From NCBI RefSeq assembly GCF_900460955.1, contig NZ_UFUW01000001.1, positions 2,279,001 through 2,343,000 on the forward strand: DNA of 64,000 nucleotides. The letters are read 5' to 3'. The DNA comes from Cardiobacterium valvarum. Lineage in GTDB: Bacteria > Pseudomonadota > Gammaproteobacteria > Cardiobacteriales > Cardiobacteriaceae. Below, piece after piece: positions 29,593 to 55,188 of the stretch. The notes below the pieces were generated by a model. The model was not told the DNA's origin. It searched no databases and saw only the letters and a program-made list of their open reading frames with translations. The position numbers and the translations under genes were made by a program. How positions within the stretch are numbered: the stretch's first letter is position 1; each line of letters begins with the position of its first letter.

Positions 29593-30378
29593 TTAGAACA
29601 TCACCTGTCCGCCGGTGATGTTGATCGACTGCCCCGTGCAGTAAGAGGCTTTGTCGCTGGCGTAGAAAAGCAGCACGTTCAGCACGTCCTGATAGTCGCA
29701 GCCGCGTTTCAGCGGGACTTTGTCGATGTAGGTCTGCTCAACCTGGTCTTCGGGGATGCCGAGTTTTTTCGCGTATTCAGGGATCAGCGACTGGAACATC
29801 GGCGATTTCAGCAGGTTGCCCAGCATCAGCGCATTCACGGTGATGCCTTTGTCGGCAAGGTCAAGGGCGAGTGACTGGGTGAGGCCGACCGCGCCGAATT
29901 TGGCGGCGCTGTAGCCGGCGTTGTATTTGCTGCCGACTTTGCCCGATTTGGAATTGATTTCGATGATGCGGCCGTGGATGCCGTCGCGGATCATCAGGCG
30001 GGCGAAGGCGCGGGCACAGAGGAAGTAGCCGGTGAGGTTGACATCCAGTGAGCGCTGGAAGTCTTTGAGCGGGAAGTCCCAGATGGGTGAGGCTTTGGCG
30101 ACGCCGGCGCTGTACAGCAAAAGGTCGCTGCGGCCAAAGGTGCGGTCCACGGCGGCAGCAAGTTCGTCCACTGCCGCTTCATTGGTGGCATCCGCCGCAA
30201 ATCCGGCGGCACTGCCCGCACCGTGGGCGGCGTTGATTTCGGCAGCGACGCGTTCGGCGTTATCGCCGTTCAGGTCGGCGACGGCGACGCGGTAGCCGGC
30301 ATCTGCCAGGCCTTTGCTGAGGAAGGCGCCGAGGGTTTGTCCGCCGCCGATGACGATGGCTGTGGGTTTGTTATTCAT
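29593..30378 (-). CDS. srlD: Sorbitol-6-phosphate 2-dehydrogenase
   Basis: This enzyme oxidises sorbitol 6-phosphate to fructose 6-phosphate with NAD+. The 261-aa SDR-fold protein has the cofactor loop VIGGGQTLGAFLSKGL, LLYSAGVAKA, and the catalytic Ser/Tyr/Lys region (INSKSGKVGSKYNAGYSAAK). The CDYQDVLNVLLFYASDKASY segment and length match E. coli SrlD (259 aa). It follows srlB by 13 bp in the PTS operon. Confidence 0.95.
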   Translation of the reverse strand: MNNKPTAIVIGGGQTLGAFLSKGLADAGYRVAVADLNGDNAERVAAEINAAHGAGSAAGFAADATNEAAVDELAAAVDRTFGRSDLLLYSAGVAKASPIWDFPLKDFQRSLDVNLTGYFLCARAFARLMIRDGIHGRIIEINSKSGKVGSKYNAGYSAAKFGAVGLTQSLALDLADKGITVNALMLGNLLKSPMFQSLIPEYAKKLGIPEDQVEQTYIDKVPLKRGCDYQDVLNVLLFYASDKASYCTGQSINITGGQVMF

Positions 30379-30391
30379 GGTTGTTCTCCTC

Positions 30392-30763
30392 TTAGCAGGT
30401 TTCGATGATGAAGTCGCTGTCTTCTGTCAGCGTGTCGGCGGGCAGGTGGCCGAGCAGGTGCACGGTGCCGGGCAGTTTGGCTTCTTCTGCGCCGTCGAAG
30501 TAAATGGTGATATGGCCGAGTGAGCGGAAGTTGTCGAGGGCGTTACTGCCGACGGCGGTCAGCGGGAAGCGCTTGCCGCCGAGGATAAAGAGGTCGCCGG
30601 GGGCGAAGTCCTGTTTCAGCTCGCCGTGGCTGTGCAGAAAGCAGTATTCCGCCATGTCCGCCGTCGCTTCCGTTTCCGCGAAGGTGATAAACATGCCGTC
30701 CGGAAAACCTTCCCGCGCGGCACTGCCGGCGCGGGTGAATTGAGCCTGATAGATGACGCGCAT
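30392..30763 (-). CDS. srlB: PTS glucitol/sorbitol-specific EIIA component
   Basis: The 123-aa protein is the cytoplasmic EIIA that passes phosphate from HPr to EIIB. It shows MRVIYQAQFTRAGSAAREGF, MFITFAETE and YCFLHSHGELK; the last holds the likely phospho-accepting His. GDLFILGGKRFPLTAVGSNA follows. The length matches E. coli SrlB (123 aa). Its start lies 3 bp after the srlE stop. Confidence 0.94.
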   Translation of the reverse strand: MRVIYQAQFTRAGSAAREGFPDGMFITFAETEATADMAEYCFLHSHGELKQDFAPGDLFILGGKRFPLTAVGSNALDNFRSLGHITIYFDGAEEAKLPGTVHLLGHLPADTLTEDSDFIIETC

Positions 30764-30766
30764 GAT

Positions 30767-31756
30767 TTAGCCCTGATAGATGAAGCCGGAGACGAACCAA
30801 GCGAGCAGCACGGTCGGCGCACCGGTGAGGAAACGGCCAAGCAGTACCGAGGGCACACCGACCCGCACCGTGTCCTGCTTCGCTTCCGCGAGCGAGAGGC
30901 CGACCGGGATGAAGTCGCAGGCGGCTTGCGCGTTGATGGCGAAAAGGGCGGGCAGCGCCAGATGCGGTGGGACAACGCCCTGCCCGATCATGGTGCCGAC
31001 CAGCACGCCGATGACTTGCGCGATAACGGCGCCTGGGCCAAGGAAGGGCGAGAGGAAGGGGAAGGAACAAATCAGCGACAACGCAATCAGGCCAATGGGG
31101 CTTTTTGCCAGCGGCTCAAGGCCGTGCGCAATCCAGTCACCGAGGCCGGAAGCGATGATGATACCGATCAGCGCCGAAACGAAGGCCATAAAGGGCAGGA
31201 TGGTTTTCAGCACCGTATCGATGGTGTCGCGCCCCGCCTGGAAGAAAACGGCGATAACCGAACCCATGCCGATACCAATGCGCGCCAAAAGGCCGTCTGA
31301 TTGCTCGGTGATCTTCTTGCTGGCGTCATAATCGCGCGGCGCGTTGCCCGCTTGTGCAGCGGGCGCAGGCGTCGCGGCAGGCGCTTCACCATCAGCGAGA
31401 TGGATGTCATGCGGACGCACGGCGGAAACATAAATATCTTCGACAATGAACTCCGCCAGCGGGCCGGATTTACCGGTGGCGTGAATATTGATGGTCGGAA
31501 TACGCCGCTTCGGATAAAGGCCGCAGCGCAGCGTGCCGCCGCAGTCGATAATCGCGACGCCGATTTCCTCCGCCGGCGGTTCGCCTTCCTTGAAACCGTC
31601 CACCGCTTCCCAGCCGGTCAGCTCAACCAGGCGGTCAACGATGTCCGGACGGGTACCGGCGGTCATATAAAGAATCTTCTTGCCTTCCTCGACATTCAGC
31701 AGCAACGGGCCGCCCCAGCCGCCATTACCTTTGACAATGCGGATAACCTTGCTCAT
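30767..31756 (-). CDS. srlE: PTS glucitol/sorbitol-specific EIIB/EIIC2 component
   Basis: This 329-aa protein starts with a EIIB domain ([18 protein letters not shown]; probable phospho-Cys in [18 protein letters not shown], about residue 71). A Pro/Ala linker follows (about 135-150), then the EIIC2 membrane domain ([39 protein letters not shown]). Sorbitol is phosphorylated during import. It is slightly longer than E. coli SrlE (319 aa). It lies 11 bp after srlA. Confidence 0.94.
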
Positions 31757-31767
31757 GACGTGCTCCT

Positions 31768-32325
31768 TTAATTATTGCTGCTGAGGTTGACGGTGCGGTC
31801 AAGACGGATGCCCATGCGCTTCTCGAACAGCGCCGTCGTCCAGTCATTCACCCAGCCCCGGAAGAAATTGGTCACCATGCCGACCAGCAAATAGCAAACG
31901 GCAAGCGGTGCCAAATCCAGCCCCAGCGTTTTCAGGCCGTTGGCGATGCCGAGATAAACGAACAACTCGCCCGGATTGATGTGCGGGAACATACCGTTCA
32001 TCGAGTGACAGCTATATGACGCTGCCGCGTAATAACTGGGCTTGTAGCACTCCGGCATGAAACGGCCCAGGCTGAGTGTCATCGGATTACAGAACACAAA
32101 CGTACCGATGACCGGCAACACCAGATAACGGGAAACCGGATTGCCCGCACACTTCTGCGCCAGCCGCTCGATGCGCTGCTGACCGACAAAGGCAATCACC
32201 GCATTCATCACCACCAGCAAGGCAATCAGCAATGGCAGAATCCCCGTCACCATGCCGACGAACACCTCGCCGCCCTTTTGAAACAGGCCGATAAACCACT
32301 CGGCCCCATGCGTTATCGCATTCAT
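31768..32325 (-). CDS. srlA: PTS glucitol/sorbitol-specific EIIC component
   Basis: ATG at 32325 ([18 protein letters not shown]) has AAGAGG at good spacing; the GTG two codons earlier overlaps that site. The 185-aa product equals E. coli SrlA in size (187 aa). About four membrane segments and the family signatures [19 protein letters not shown] and [18 protein letters not shown] are present. It forms the first part of the sorbitol permease and is the first gene of srlA-srlE-srlB-srlD-adhE-gutM-srlR. Confidence 0.95.
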
Positions 32326-32397
32326 AAACACCTCTTGAAAGAAAGAAGAAACCCCGCCGTACTACCACTCGCGTGACTTAGTTCGACGTTAACTTGG

Positions 32398-32445
32398 ATT
32401 ATATAGATAAAAACGGGTTAATAACAAGTTTTAGCTTGTGATTAA
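32398..32445 (-). promoter_or_regulatory. Promoter and palindromic operator of the srl-adhE operon
   Basis: On the minus strand TTGTTA (32422-32427) and a perfect TATAAT (32398-32403) are spaced by 18 bp, 73 bp before the srlA ATG. An 11-bp inverted repeat with one mismatch, TTAATAACAAG (32418-32428) / CTTGTGATTAA (32435-32445), covers the -35 box. This is where a repressor such as SrlR would block RNA polymerase. Confidence 0.7.
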
Positions 32446-32658
32446 TAGCAATTACTCCTGATTTATCTTGGAATTCTATTGAAGAAAAATGTGGTAAGCG
32501 GTGTGAAGTTTACGTTGAGTTTCTATACCACAATGAAATATATGATATAAATTTGGATAATCGACAGATTGGGAAAAGCAGACAATCGCACCTGAGTGAT
32601 TGGAAAACCGCTTGCGTTTGCCAACACGCCGGACAAATCGCGATGGCGACAAGCCCCG
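32446..32658. other. AT-rich intergenic stretch, no gene recognised
   Basis: This 213-bp stretch between the srl operator and the repeat array is clearly more AT-rich than its surroundings. It holds a 7-bp inverted repeat TGTGGTA...TACCACA (about 32491-32530). No ORF with a start, ribosome binding site and recognisable product is seen. Confidence 0.5.
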
Positions 32659-33588
32659 TCAACAACGCCGCTTTGGCGGAACCAGTGTTTGCGCCGCTTA
32701 GAGGAACCAGTAACGATGCCGCTTGACGGGCCCAGTGTTTACGCCGCCTGGCGAGCCCGGTAACGATGCCGCTTAACGGCCCCAGCATTTACGCCGCTTG
32801 GCACAAAATAATCCCTTCCCCCACTTGCAGGGGAAGGTGTCGCGAAGCGACGGAAGGGGGATAAGAAACCAGCATTTGCGCCGCTTGACAGGCTCAGTAA
32901 CCACGCCGCTTGGCGGGCCCAGTGTTTACGCCGCCTGGCGAGCCCGGTAACGATGCCGCTTGACGGCCCTAGCATTTACGCCGCTTGGCACAAAATAATC
33001 CCTTCCCCCGCTTGCGGGGGGAAGGTGTCGCGAAGCGACGGAAGGGGGAGATAAGAAATCAGCATTTGCGCCGCTTGACAGGCTCAGTAACCACGCCGCT
33101 TGGCGGGCCCAGTGTTTACGCCGCCTGGCGAGCCCGGTAACGATGCCGCTTGGCGGCCCCAGCATTTACGCCGCTTGACACAAAATAATCCCTTCCCCCG
33201 CTTGCGGGGGAAGGTGTCGCGAAGCGACGGAAGGGGGAGATAAGAAATCAGCATTTGCGCCGCTTGACAGGCTCAGTAACCACGCCGCTTGGCGGGCCCA
33301 GTGTTTACGCCGCCTGGCGAGCCCGGTAACGATGCCGCTTGGCGGCCCCAGCATTTACGCCGCTTGACACAAAATAATCCCTTCCCCCGCTTGCGGGGGA
33401 AGGTGTCGCGAAGCGACGGAAGGGGGAGATAAGAAACCAGCATTTGCGCCGCTTGACAGGCTCAGTAACCACGCCGCTTGGCGGGCCCAGTGTTTACGCC
33501 GCCTGGCGAGCCCGGTAACGATGCCGCTTGACGGCCCCAGCATTTACGCCGCTTGGCGAGCCTAGTAACGACACCGCTTGGCGGCTGC
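32659..33588 (+). repeat. Tandem array of ~189-bp higher-order units made of 25-bp repeats
   Basis: Corresponding points of successive units begin at 32735, 32922, 33112, 33301 and 33490, giving unit lengths of 187, 190, 189 and 189 bp and a partial last copy. Each unit holds four whole 25-bp repeats (two subtypes, starting GTAAC.ACGCC and GnnTTTACGCC; core CCGCTTGGCGG) and a fifth interrupted by a ~64-bp insert. The insert carries two hairpins: CTTCCCCCGC/GCGGGGGAAG and GTCGCGAAGCGAC. Further single 25-bp copies flank both ends. The array abuts the parE stop codon. Repeated 62-codon minus-strand ORFs arise only because the unit is 63 codons long. Confidence 0.95.
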
Positions 33589-33589
33589 G

Positions 33590-35512
33590 TCAGAGGCCGG
33601 GCAGGGCTGCCGTGTCGAAGGCGTCGAGGTTTTCGGCGTGGTCGCCGTTGGTTTCTATCCACTGGCGGCGGTCGGCGGCGCGTTTGTCCGCGAGCAGCAT
33701 GTCAAGCAGGGCTTCGGCGCTTGCCGCGTCGTGGTAGGTGAGGCGGACGAGGCGGCGTGTGTCCGGGTTCATCGTGGTTTCGCGCAGTTGCGGCGGGTTC
33801 ATTTCGCCGAGGCCCTTGAAGCGGGTGACGTTGATTTTGCCGTGGTAACCGTCGCGGCGGATGGCGGTGATGGTCGCGTCACGTTCGGCTTCGTCCAGCG
33901 CGTATTCGATGCGTTTGCCGGCGTCAATGCGGTAGAGCGGCGGCATGGCGACATAGAGGTGTCCCGCTTGGACCAGTGCCGGGAAGTGCCGCACCATCAA
34001 GGCGCAGATGAGGGTGGCGATGTGCAGGCCGTCCGAGTCGGCGTCGGCGAGGATGCAGATTTTGCCGTAGCGCAGGCCGCTCAGGTCGTCGCTGGCCGGG
34101 TCGATGCCGACGGCGACGGCGATGTCGTGGATTTCCTGTGAGCTCATGACGACGGCGGAGTCGTCTTCCCAGGTGTTTTTGATTTTGCCGCGCAGGGGCA
34201 TGATGGCCTGGTATTGGCGGTCGCGCGCCTGTTTGGCCGAGCCGCCCGCCGAGTCGCCTTCGACGAGGAAGAGTTCGGTCAGGCGGTTGTCCTGGCTGAT
34301 GCAGTCGGCGAGTTTGCCGGGCAGCGCCGGGCCGCCGGCAGTGCGTTTGCGGGTGATTTGTTTGTTGCTGTTGAGGCGTTTTTGCGCGTGACCGATAGCA
34401 AGCGCGGCGAGGGCCTCGCCGATGTCGGCGTGTTTGTTGAGGTAGAGGCCAAAGTGGTCTTTGACGGTGTTACCGACCCAGGCGGCGCATTGGCGCGAGG
34501 TGAGGCGTTCTTTGGTCTGGCTGGAGAATTGGGGTTCGGGGATTTTTACGGAGAGGACGTATTGGCAGCCTTCCCAGATGTCTTCCGGCGCGAGTTTGAT
34601 GCCGCGCGGCAGCAGTTGGCGGAATTCGCAGAATTCGCGCAGGGCGTCAACGAGGCCGCTGCGCAGACCGTTGACGTGGGTGCCGCCGCCGATGGTGGGG
34701 ATGAGGTTGGCGTAGCTTTCATAGGTGCCGTTTACGCCGCTGCCTTCTTGCCAGGTGAGGGCGAGGTCGATTTGGCCGTCGCTGTCGCTGTGGTTCAGGG
34801 TGTAGGGTTCGGCAGGCAGGGTGCCGTCGCCGGTCTGTTCGCTGAGGTAGGCGCTGAGGCCGTCCTGGTAGCACCATTCGTCTTCTTCGCCGCCCACTTC
34901 GTTGGTAAAGCGGATGTTGAGGCCGGCACAGAGGACGGCTTTGGCTTTGAGGGTTTGTTTGAGGCGGGGGATGGAGTAGTTGGGGCTGTCGAAGTAGACG
35001 GGATCGGCCCAGAAGCGGACGGTGGTGCCGTGGCGGCGTTTGCCGATGTCTTCAACGGCAGTCAGCGGTTCGACCACTTCGCCGTGCGCGCAGGCAAGGC
35101 GGTAGCGCCGGCCGTCGCGTTCGATATCCACTTCAAGGCGGGTGGAGAGGGCGTTGACGACGGAGACGCCGACGCCGTGCAGACCGCCGGAGTAGTTGTA
35201 GTTTTTGCGGCTGAATTTACCGCCCGCATGCAGGCGGGTAAGGATGAGTTCGACGCCGCTTACGCCTTCTTCGGGGTGGATGTCCACCGGCATGCCGCGT
35301 CCGTCATCCTGCACACTGAGGGAGCCGTCGCGGTGCAGGGTAACGTGGATATTTTTGGCGTAGCCGGCCAGGGCTTCGTCCACGCTGTTGTCAATGACTT
35401 CTTGCGCAAGGTGGTTCGGGCGGGTGGTGTCGGTGTACATGCCCGGGCGGCGGCGGACGGGGTCAAGTCCTTTGAGGACGTCAATGTCGGCGGCGCGGTA
35501 GTGGTCTGTCAT
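33590..35512 (-). CDS. parE: DNA topoisomerase IV subunit B
   Basis: ParE supplies the ATPase of topoisomerase IV, which decatenates daughter chromosomes. The start at 35512 (MTDHYRAADIDVLKGLDPVR) gives 640 aa, the usual ParE size; a longer in-frame extension to 35689 lacks similarity. GHKL ATPase motifs (EVIDNSVDEALAGY, DDGRGMPVDIHPEEGVSG, GGLHGVGVSVVNALS) are followed by the Toprim domain (ELFLVEGDSAGGSAKQARDR, DADSDGLHI). Lack of the long GyrB insertion and the short C-terminus support ParE over GyrB. The stop directly borders the repeat array; parC is not adjacent. Confidence 0.94.
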   Translation of the reverse strand: MTDHYRAADIDVLKGLDPVRRRPGMYTDTTRPNHLAQEVIDNSVDEALAGYAKNIHVTLHRDGSLSVQDDGRGMPVDIHPEEGVSGVELILTRLHAGGKFSRKNYNYSGGLHGVGVSVVNALSTRLEVDIERDGRRYRLACAHGEVVEPLTAVEDIGKRRHGTTVRFWADPVYFDSPNYSIPRLKQTLKAKAVLCAGLNIRFTNEVGGEEDEWCYQDGLSAYLSEQTGDGTLPAEPYTLNHSDSDGQIDLALTWQEGSGVNGTYESYANLIPTIGGGTHVNGLRSGLVDALREFCEFRQLLPRGIKLAPEDIWEGCQYVLSVKIPEPQFSSQTKERLTSRQCAAWVGNTVKDHFGLYLNKHADIGEALAALAIGHAQKRLNSNKQITRKRTAGGPALPGKLADCISQDNRLTELFLVEGDSAGGSAKQARDRQYQAIMPLRGKIKNTWEDDSAVVMSSQEIHDIAVAVGIDPASDDLSGLRYGKICILADADSDGLHIATLICALMVRHFPALVQAGHLYVAMPPLYRIDAGKRIEYALDEAERDATITAIRRDGYHGKINVTRFKGLGEMNPPQLRETTMNPDTRRLVRLTYHDAASAEALLDMLLADKRAADRRQWIETNGDHAENLDAFDTAALPGL

Positions 35513-54897: not shown

Positions 54898-54988
54898 GCC
54901 AAGCGGAAACCCAGCGTTTAACCCGCTTGACGGGCCCAGTATTTATGCCGCTTGGAGAACCCAGTAACTACGCCGCTTGGCGGGCCCA
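54898..54988 (+). repeat. Three consecutive 25-bp CCGCTTGGCGG repeats downstream of purB
   Basis: Exact 25-bp units at 54914-54938, 54939-54963 and 54964-54988, preceded by a partial copy. They are the same two subtypes as in the array 22 kb away, ending in GGGCCCA or AGAACCCA. Confidence 0.85.
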
Positions 54989-54992
54989 GAAC

Positions 54993-55035
54993 CGTAGGGC
55001 AGGCTTCAGCCCACTGAGCAGGTACAGCCTGCTTG
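54993..55035 (-). repeat. Hairpin repeat with TGGGCTGAAGCC core, copy 2
   Basis: Read on the minus strand it contains CTGCTCAGTGGGCTGAAGCC then TGCCCTACG, closely matching the element at 25384-25416 in opposite orientation. Outer arms GCAGGCT/AGCCTGC can pair. Confidence 0.65.
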
Positions 55036-55053
55036 TTGCGTTCTGGGCAAATG

Positions 55054-55188
55054 CGGCTGCCAGGCGGAGTAGCTACGCGGTTTTTGTATTGAGACGTTGC
55101 AGGCGACGTCTCTACAAAACCCTGTATTTACGCCGCTTGACGAAATCTTGTCGCGTCCGAAAGAAACGACCATAAACCCCACACACCC
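55054..55188. repeat. Remaining repeat region upstream of ccoI
   Basis: This part of the 332-bp purB-ccoI gap has no gene. It holds a diverged core (TGCCAGGCGG), an inverted repeat GAGACGTTGC / GGCGACGTCTC at 55091-55112, and one more 25-bp unit (GTATTTACGCCGCTTGACG) at 55124-55148. No clear promoter is seen. Confidence 0.65.

Follow-up and report, generated by a model that had tools for sequence, protein, structure and literature searches.

A mosaic array of 25-bp repeats and hairpin cassettes between parE and the sorbitol operon of Cardiobacterium valvarum

The array between parE and srlA

The window analysed here is a 64,000-nt stretch of NZ_UFUW01000001.1, and coordinates given without a locus label are counted from its first letter. 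Within it, a mosaic array of short repeats and hairpins lies between parE, which is transcribed into the array, and a sorbitol PTS operon headed by srlA. The first-pass annotation had placed the array between the srl promoter region and the parE stop codon, and both flanks were found as it described them: the parE stop is 2 bp past the last 25-bp repeat (25-mer), and the opposite side holds srlA together with a promoter-like site. The features are the following.

29593–32331, minus strand: operon srlA-srlE-srlB-srlD, with srlA, srlE and srlD above the NCBIfam cut-offs and srlB model matches below the cut-off
31768–32331, minus strand: srlA, which opens the sorbitol PTS operon on the downstream side of the array (NCBIfam matches for the operon: TIGR00821, TIGR00825, NF009050 and others)
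32398–32427, minus strand: promoter-like site upstream of srlA, a consensus match only, ~230 bp from the array end
32657–33587, plus strand: whole mosaic array of 25-mers and four hairpin cassettes, ending 2 bp short of the parE stop codon
32683–32869, plus strand: unit 1, 187 bp, the most divergent (~0.91 identity to units 2–4), its first two 25-mers differing
32803–32869, plus strand: hairpin cassette 1; on the minus strand its first hairpin (32837–32814) is followed by GATTATTTTG
32870–33059, plus strand: unit 2, 190 bp, 25-mers A–E and cassette
32990–33059, plus strand: hairpin cassette 2, terminator-like on the minus strand, stem 33025–33001
33060–33248, plus strand: unit 3, 189 bp, one mismatch against unit 4
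33180–33248, plus strand: hairpin cassette 3, minus-strand stem 33214–33191
33249–33437, plus strand: unit 4, 189 bp
33369–33437, plus strand: hairpin cassette 4, minus-strand stem 33403–33380
33438–33587, plus strand: terminal block of six 25-mers without a cassette, with the cassette-free junction between ...CGCTTGGC and GAGCCTAGTAACG
33590–35512, minus strand: parE (DNA topoisomerase IV subunit B), upstream neighbour of the array (NCBIfam TIGR01055, 907 bits)
54912–55146, plus strand: second mosaic array of the 25-mer family in the window, with three 25-mers, a GTAG-type REP, a GAGACGTT hairpin and one 25-mer

Tandem Repeats Finder reports a tandem array at 32680–33555 with a period of 189, 4.6 copies, 96% matches and a score of 1587. 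An ungapped repeat search returned five 189-nt copies spaced by 187, 190, 189 and 189, the same spacings that had been read from the letters alone. The earlier description of each unit as four 25-bp repeats plus one interrupted copy kept its layout but needed one correction: a full unit holds five 25-mers (A–E), and a 64-bp double-hairpin insert replaces the tail of E. The insert itself is present, and its stems covary among relatives elsewhere in the genome. The terminal block consists of 25-mers and lacks the cassette. The 25-mers follow each other contiguously and without spacers, and do not show the direct repeats with unique spacers of a CRISPR array.

Aligned pairwise, units 2–4 are 98–99.5% identical to each other and unit 1 is ~91% identical to them. 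Units 3 and 4 differ at only 1 of 189 bases, which bears out the proposal of a recent local amplification or homogenisation. Judged from the assembled sequence, the substitutions specific to single units argue against a trivial assembly duplication as the probable source of the units.

The closest named match to parE, in a Cardiobacteriaceae MAG, is 76% identical. In the well-assembled congener G001 the ParE protein is 88% identical, and downstream of the gene lie a HipA-like gene and valS, with neither an srl operon nor 25-mers in the neighbourhood. Given these different neighbours, the array site is a point at which gene order differs between the two species, and we reject the idea of an array conserved as a site at parE. 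In G001 (L193 5092-6426) the HipA-like gene and a small putative DNA-binding partner occupy the position that the array and the srl operon hold here.

A dispersed extragenic 25-mer

The 25-bp unit, CAGTATTTAYSCCGCTTGGCGG, is abundant throughout the genome (2.755 Mb in two contigs, 59% G+C). A 21-base pattern allowing at most 2 mismatches finds 614 strict copies, against 1 for a reversed-pattern control. Further statistics come from the window plus 39 evenly spaced 20-kb stretches, some containing runs of N, which together cover 844 kb or 31% of the genome. In this sample an iterated profile finds 493 copies (8 in shuffled sequence), from which we extrapolate to ~1,600 genome-wide, and the family makes up ~8% of the sampled intergenic DNA. 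With ~200 clusters of 25-mers in this 31%, the locus singled out by the first-pass annotation is one among many. The genome-wide count and replication orientation suggested there as a check gave copies on either strand and no bias relative to local GC skew (p = 0.2), a skew that is itself weak, in a genome where origin and terminus were not located.

Single copies are sharp-edged, with the consensus RAAnCCCAGTRTTTAYSCCGCTTGGCGG. Neighbouring copies form head-to-tail arrays with a spacing of 25 (147 cases) or 35 (29 cases), and 69 of 82 multi-copy clusters are confined to one strand. A second subtype (ATCCCGCTTGGCGGC...) builds 35-bp-period arrays in which the 10-bp spacer is partly conserved (L144 ~424618, L147 ~840055, L145 ~560993).

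Beyond the source genome and one well-assembled congener the repeat is essentially absent. A scan of 40 relatives found 37 copies in G001, one 2-mismatch match in the fragmented assembly of a second congener, and 0–2 copies in others of the family. The exact core 16-mer, present 62 times in its own genome, occurs once each in 3 others in a scan of 398 genomes of the phylum; records of very near genomes may be missing from the scan. On these counts, the family is confined to the genus, and it has been strongly amplified in the source species. We found no account of this 25-mer in the open literature searched. Two observations on the assemblies belong here. Close to each end of the single G001 contig (L202, L203) is a 25-mer-like array with a 28-bp period and identical scores, possibly an end overlap. 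Contig C1 of the genome under study (G000; L180, 1-4700) is a 4.7-kb inverted self-repeat with matches mirrored about its centre and looks like a fold-back assembly artefact; its ORFs read as CRISPR-Cas type I-C-like genes, with 25-mers between two of them.

The 25-mer is strongly depleted in genes. The exact core CCGCTTGGCGG occurs 136 times in intergenic and 7 times in coding sequence, in DNA that is 85% coding, and 69 of the 493 profile copies fall inside genes as called by a simple, non-standard hexamer caller that we built for this analysis. Among gaps of at least 60 bp, 25-mers are found in 42 of 80 convergent (53%), 75 of 241 co-directional (31%) and 9 of 79 divergent ones (11%). Clusters show no preferred strand relative to transcription (41 same, 38 opposite). 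This placement resembles that of REPs, which likewise lie at the 3' side of genes and avoid promoters (PMC3733652).

The 25-mer also has the size, copy number and location of a REP (20–40 bp, more than 100 copies, extragenic) with its 25 bp, 614 copies and 136 to 7 distribution. It lacks a palindromic stem kept by complementary changes, and its single-copy consensus carries neither a GTAG nor a CGTC tag at one end. Indeed, a short stem tested in two registers over 369 distinct copies showed covariation in neither, and even for the better stem all four pairs form in only 172 of the 369. What is conserved in the 25-mer is sequence, not structure, and we therefore reject a hairpin function for it. 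Rfam gave no match, which also removes a known structured RNA from the candidates. Since the stem does not covary, the orientation is even and Rfam is silent, the suggestion of a structured RNA array finds no support for the 25-mer. Other identities were also discarded. An IS110 target site does not fit a genome without any IS110 family element. Carriage by phages was rejected because no phage matched: the lone match to a viral contig (L214) is due to chance and lies inside phage coding sequence. Plasmid carriage was likewise rejected, as the lone match, to a Planctomyces plasmid (E 7e-4), is short and covers 13% of the query.

Hairpin families lodged between the 25-mers

At least three hairpin families are lodged among the 25-mers: (a) a CCCTTCCCCC double hairpin, (b) GTAG-tagged GTAGGGYGGGCTTYAGCCCRCC palindromes and (c) GAGACGTTGC..GCAACGTCTC hairpins. 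The cassette of the array, CCCTTCCCCC...GGAAGGGGG, belongs to family a. A 25-mer is found no more than 100 bp away at 14 of 17, 23 of 26 and 12 of 12 intergenic loci of the three families, respectively (82–100%), against 24% of random intergenic positions. The insert junctions are found between the GGCG of one 25-mer and the ACCCAG of the next. Cassette orientation relative to the 25-mers is uneven (16 to 6), at borderline significance (p = 0.05). The cassette stems do covary: 97% of cells are paired over nine distinct variants, a value that none of 500 shuffles reached.

The phylum scan also turned up cassette-like sequence in three further genomes (16, 7 and 1 copies), so the cassette type is older than the 25-mer and more widely spread. 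Unlinked loci share similar spacer sequence, which suggests that composites of 25-mer and hairpin have also spread as wholes. One such composite of 25-mer and cassette stands at one other site in both species, orthologous-looking in G001. A further interspersed module (GGCATGGTTCGTCCTGCGGACGAATGCCCC..., ~85 bp) is repeated within a few kb and at a distance, and is also joined to 25-mers (L148 ~978314, 979811, 982307; L166 768956).

The genome encodes two REP-associated tyrosine transposases (RAYTs; NF047646, 180 and 176 bits). Both genes (L181, L182) are flanked on each side by family-b GTAGGGYGGGCTTYAGCCCRCC, as is typical of RAYT-linked GTAG REPs, and the same GTAG REP type is given for H. 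influenzae (PMC2817692). The RAYTs presumably mobilise these GTAG REPs. Neither RAYT locus holds a 25-mer array or adjoins family a, and the cassette of the array has no GTAG end and is absent beside either RAYT. In the case of L182 1130-2660 (G000 C2, ~1.215 Mb), the RAYT lies within tandem arrays of its own GTAG REP, whose orientation is flipped in the outer portion of one array. A gene resembling type I restriction specificity subunits (L181 2402-3253) neighbours the second RAYT; it opens with a long tandem repeat (TDRQ repeats, 8-bp spacing), a tract that is likely phase-variable.

Origin, possible roles and relation to known repeats

Given that the 25-mer is genome-wide, extragenic and nests hairpins, we read it as an intergenic mosaic repeat of the BIME or NIME kind. 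The array next to parE is probably a locally expanded patch of this dispersed, extragenic repeat, which would be selfish or near-neutral and of weak selective value; nothing shows a special function at the site. Its building block would be the genus-restricted 25-mer with its estimated ~1,600 copies, and its second component the cassette, one of at least three REP-like palindrome families lodging at 25-mer junctions. One cassette would have come to lie between two near-identical C-D-E blocks (three 25-mers, ~70 bp). Unequal homologous exchange or replication slippage between these blocks could then duplicate the 189-bp segment cassette-A-B-C-D-E several times, the last exchange being recent. 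The C-D-E blocks of unit 1 and of the terminal block match over ~70 bp with 1 mismatch. The identity gradient, with unit 1 as the oldest and units 3 and 4 as the newest, and the cassette-free last block fit exchange or slippage, and in our view the array most likely grew through unequal exchange involving the two 70-bp blocks on either side of one cassette. The repeats would survive behind stop codons and in convergent gaps, places in which they are nearly harmless, and be purged from promoters and coding sequence.

Alternatively, the 189-bp units could stem from RAYT-driven amplification of the rolling-circle type, as has been proposed for BIMEs (PMC2817692), rather than from recombination. 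The genome does have two intact RAYT genes; however, the amplified cassette differs from the GTAG REP that flanks them, and the unit ends fall in a stretch of ~70 bp of direct homology, as would be expected from unequal exchange; on these grounds the rolling-circle route is improbable. Some features also sit uneasily with our preferred reading of the array as an expanded patch of a selfish or near-neutral repeat. The 25-mer is a poor palindrome whose stem does not covary, and hence not a standard REP. No mobilising enzyme is tied to it, given RAYT loci without 25-mer arrays and the absence of IS110. That its copies are so well conserved, in their hundreds, could just as well reflect binding by a protein, and the composite kept at one orthologous-looking site of the congener leaves room for some constraint. 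The 25-mer might indeed bind a nucleoid or architectural protein, with the arrays as high-occupancy sites in a role of the BIME-2/gyrase type. Its core CCGCTTGGCG is strongly conserved across the estimated copies in the manner of a sequence motif and not of a stem, and the arrays hold fixed 25- or 35-bp periods. Against this, the repeat is largely limited to a single species, with far fewer copies in the congener, it has no strand or replication bias, and avoidance of 5' gaps is also shown by selfish repeats that have been purged; we regard such a binding role as quite unlikely. A link to topoisomerase or chromosome architecture at this locus, as raised by the first-pass annotation, is not supported, because the repeat is spread genome-wide on both strands without GC-skew bias and parE of the congener has no 25-mers beside it.

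Termination is another role to consider. On the parE strand each cassette forms a G+C-rich hairpin followed by GATTATTTTG, so that four terminator-like sites stand in a row; the array begins 2 bp after the parE stop, and terminator-like sites number 10 in 1.4 kb against 2.6 in shuffles. The array could thus act as four intrinsic terminators that halt parE transcripts before the srl promoter, and it might have expanded as useful insulation. Yet the tail at the array (GATTATTTT) is interrupted, many cassette variants have no T tract, and T-tail orientation across the genome is, where it can be judged, unbiased toward ending the upstream gene: most loci lie in convergent gaps, where either orientation fits, and 2 of 3 unambiguous co-directional loci face the opposite way. 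Selection for a terminator role on the genome scale is therefore rejected, and the transcription barrier that the same annotation had listed is kept as a local possibility, an unlikely one as an explanation of the array. Finally, the 25-mer could be a DNA uptake sequence. Its copy number is high, its reverse strand has CCAAGCGG followed by an A/T run, loosely resembling the Actinobacillus uptake signal ACAAGCGGT, and transformability has been reported for C. hominis (a paper on the genetic transformation of this species appears in the reference list of PMC3630211). Uptake sequences, however, are abundant within genes, from which the 25-mer core is depleted, and no 9-mer or 12-mer acts like an uptake signal in coding DNA. 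We reject this reading as extremely improbable.

The layout has counterparts among known repeats. Neisserial NIMEs (dRS3 and RS repeats) likewise have a repeat of ~20–25 bp in hundreds of copies that flanks larger modules in intergenic mosaic arrays, which there measure 0.2–2.7 kb (PMC3898611). In that system dRS3 ends in 6-bp inverted repeats (ATTCCC-N8-GGGAAT) and serves as a target for phage integrase (PMC3898611), whereas the 25-mer has no dRS3 ends flanking RS modules, forms contiguous direct arrays with a 25- or 35-bp period and showed no link to an integrase; the likeness is thus one of layout only. The BIME/REP and RAYT systems of E. coli and Stenotrophomonas (PMC2817692; PMC3733652) are likewise extragenic, mostly in convergent and co-directional gaps, clustered and mosaic, and the RAYTs here are flanked by a GTAG REP type also given for H. 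influenzae. As in the BIME mosaic, where several REP types and linkers cluster extragenically, three hairpin families lie within 25-mer clusters. But the REPs of BIMEs are palindromic and alternate in orientation, whereas the 25-mers run head to tail in mostly single-strand clusters with a stem that does not covary, and the cassette of the array is not the RAYTs' own REP. A parallel to the nesting is given by REPs inside small target palindromes (T. roseum GTAG-23, H. neapolitanus CGTC-1; PMC3733652), where a hairpin also sits regularly inside a dispersed short repeat, with hundreds of copies of the target in the case of T. roseum GTAG-23 (PMC3733652). Those cases differ from ours, in which a single nest serves three or more unrelated hairpin families and is itself a repeat that builds long arrays. 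Lacking the REP palindrome and tag, the BIME alternation and the NIME dRS3 ends, the 25-mer cannot be filed under any of the three names, and by analogy it would best be called a new family of extragenic mosaic repeat, akin to BIMEs or to neisserial NIME arrays. The wider kind, extragenic interspersed mosaic repeats, is already known; what stands out is the use of one short repeat as a nest by several unrelated hairpins.

Food for thought is whether the 25-mer could be a dedicated landing platform, tolerated by the host and specific to the genus, with junctions favoured as insertion sites by three or more unrelated hairpin families, one of which is served by RAYTs. We hold this to be rather unlikely; if true, the genome would channel mobile palindromes to harmless sites behind genes. 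What the analysis does identify is an abundant repeat family, with ~1,600 estimated copies, in what is probably a human oral genus; the array next to parE is a product of this family and not a special locus. The strong nesting of unrelated hairpins offers a testable case for REP-like site choice and array growth, and the array itself is likely a variable-number marker for strain typing.
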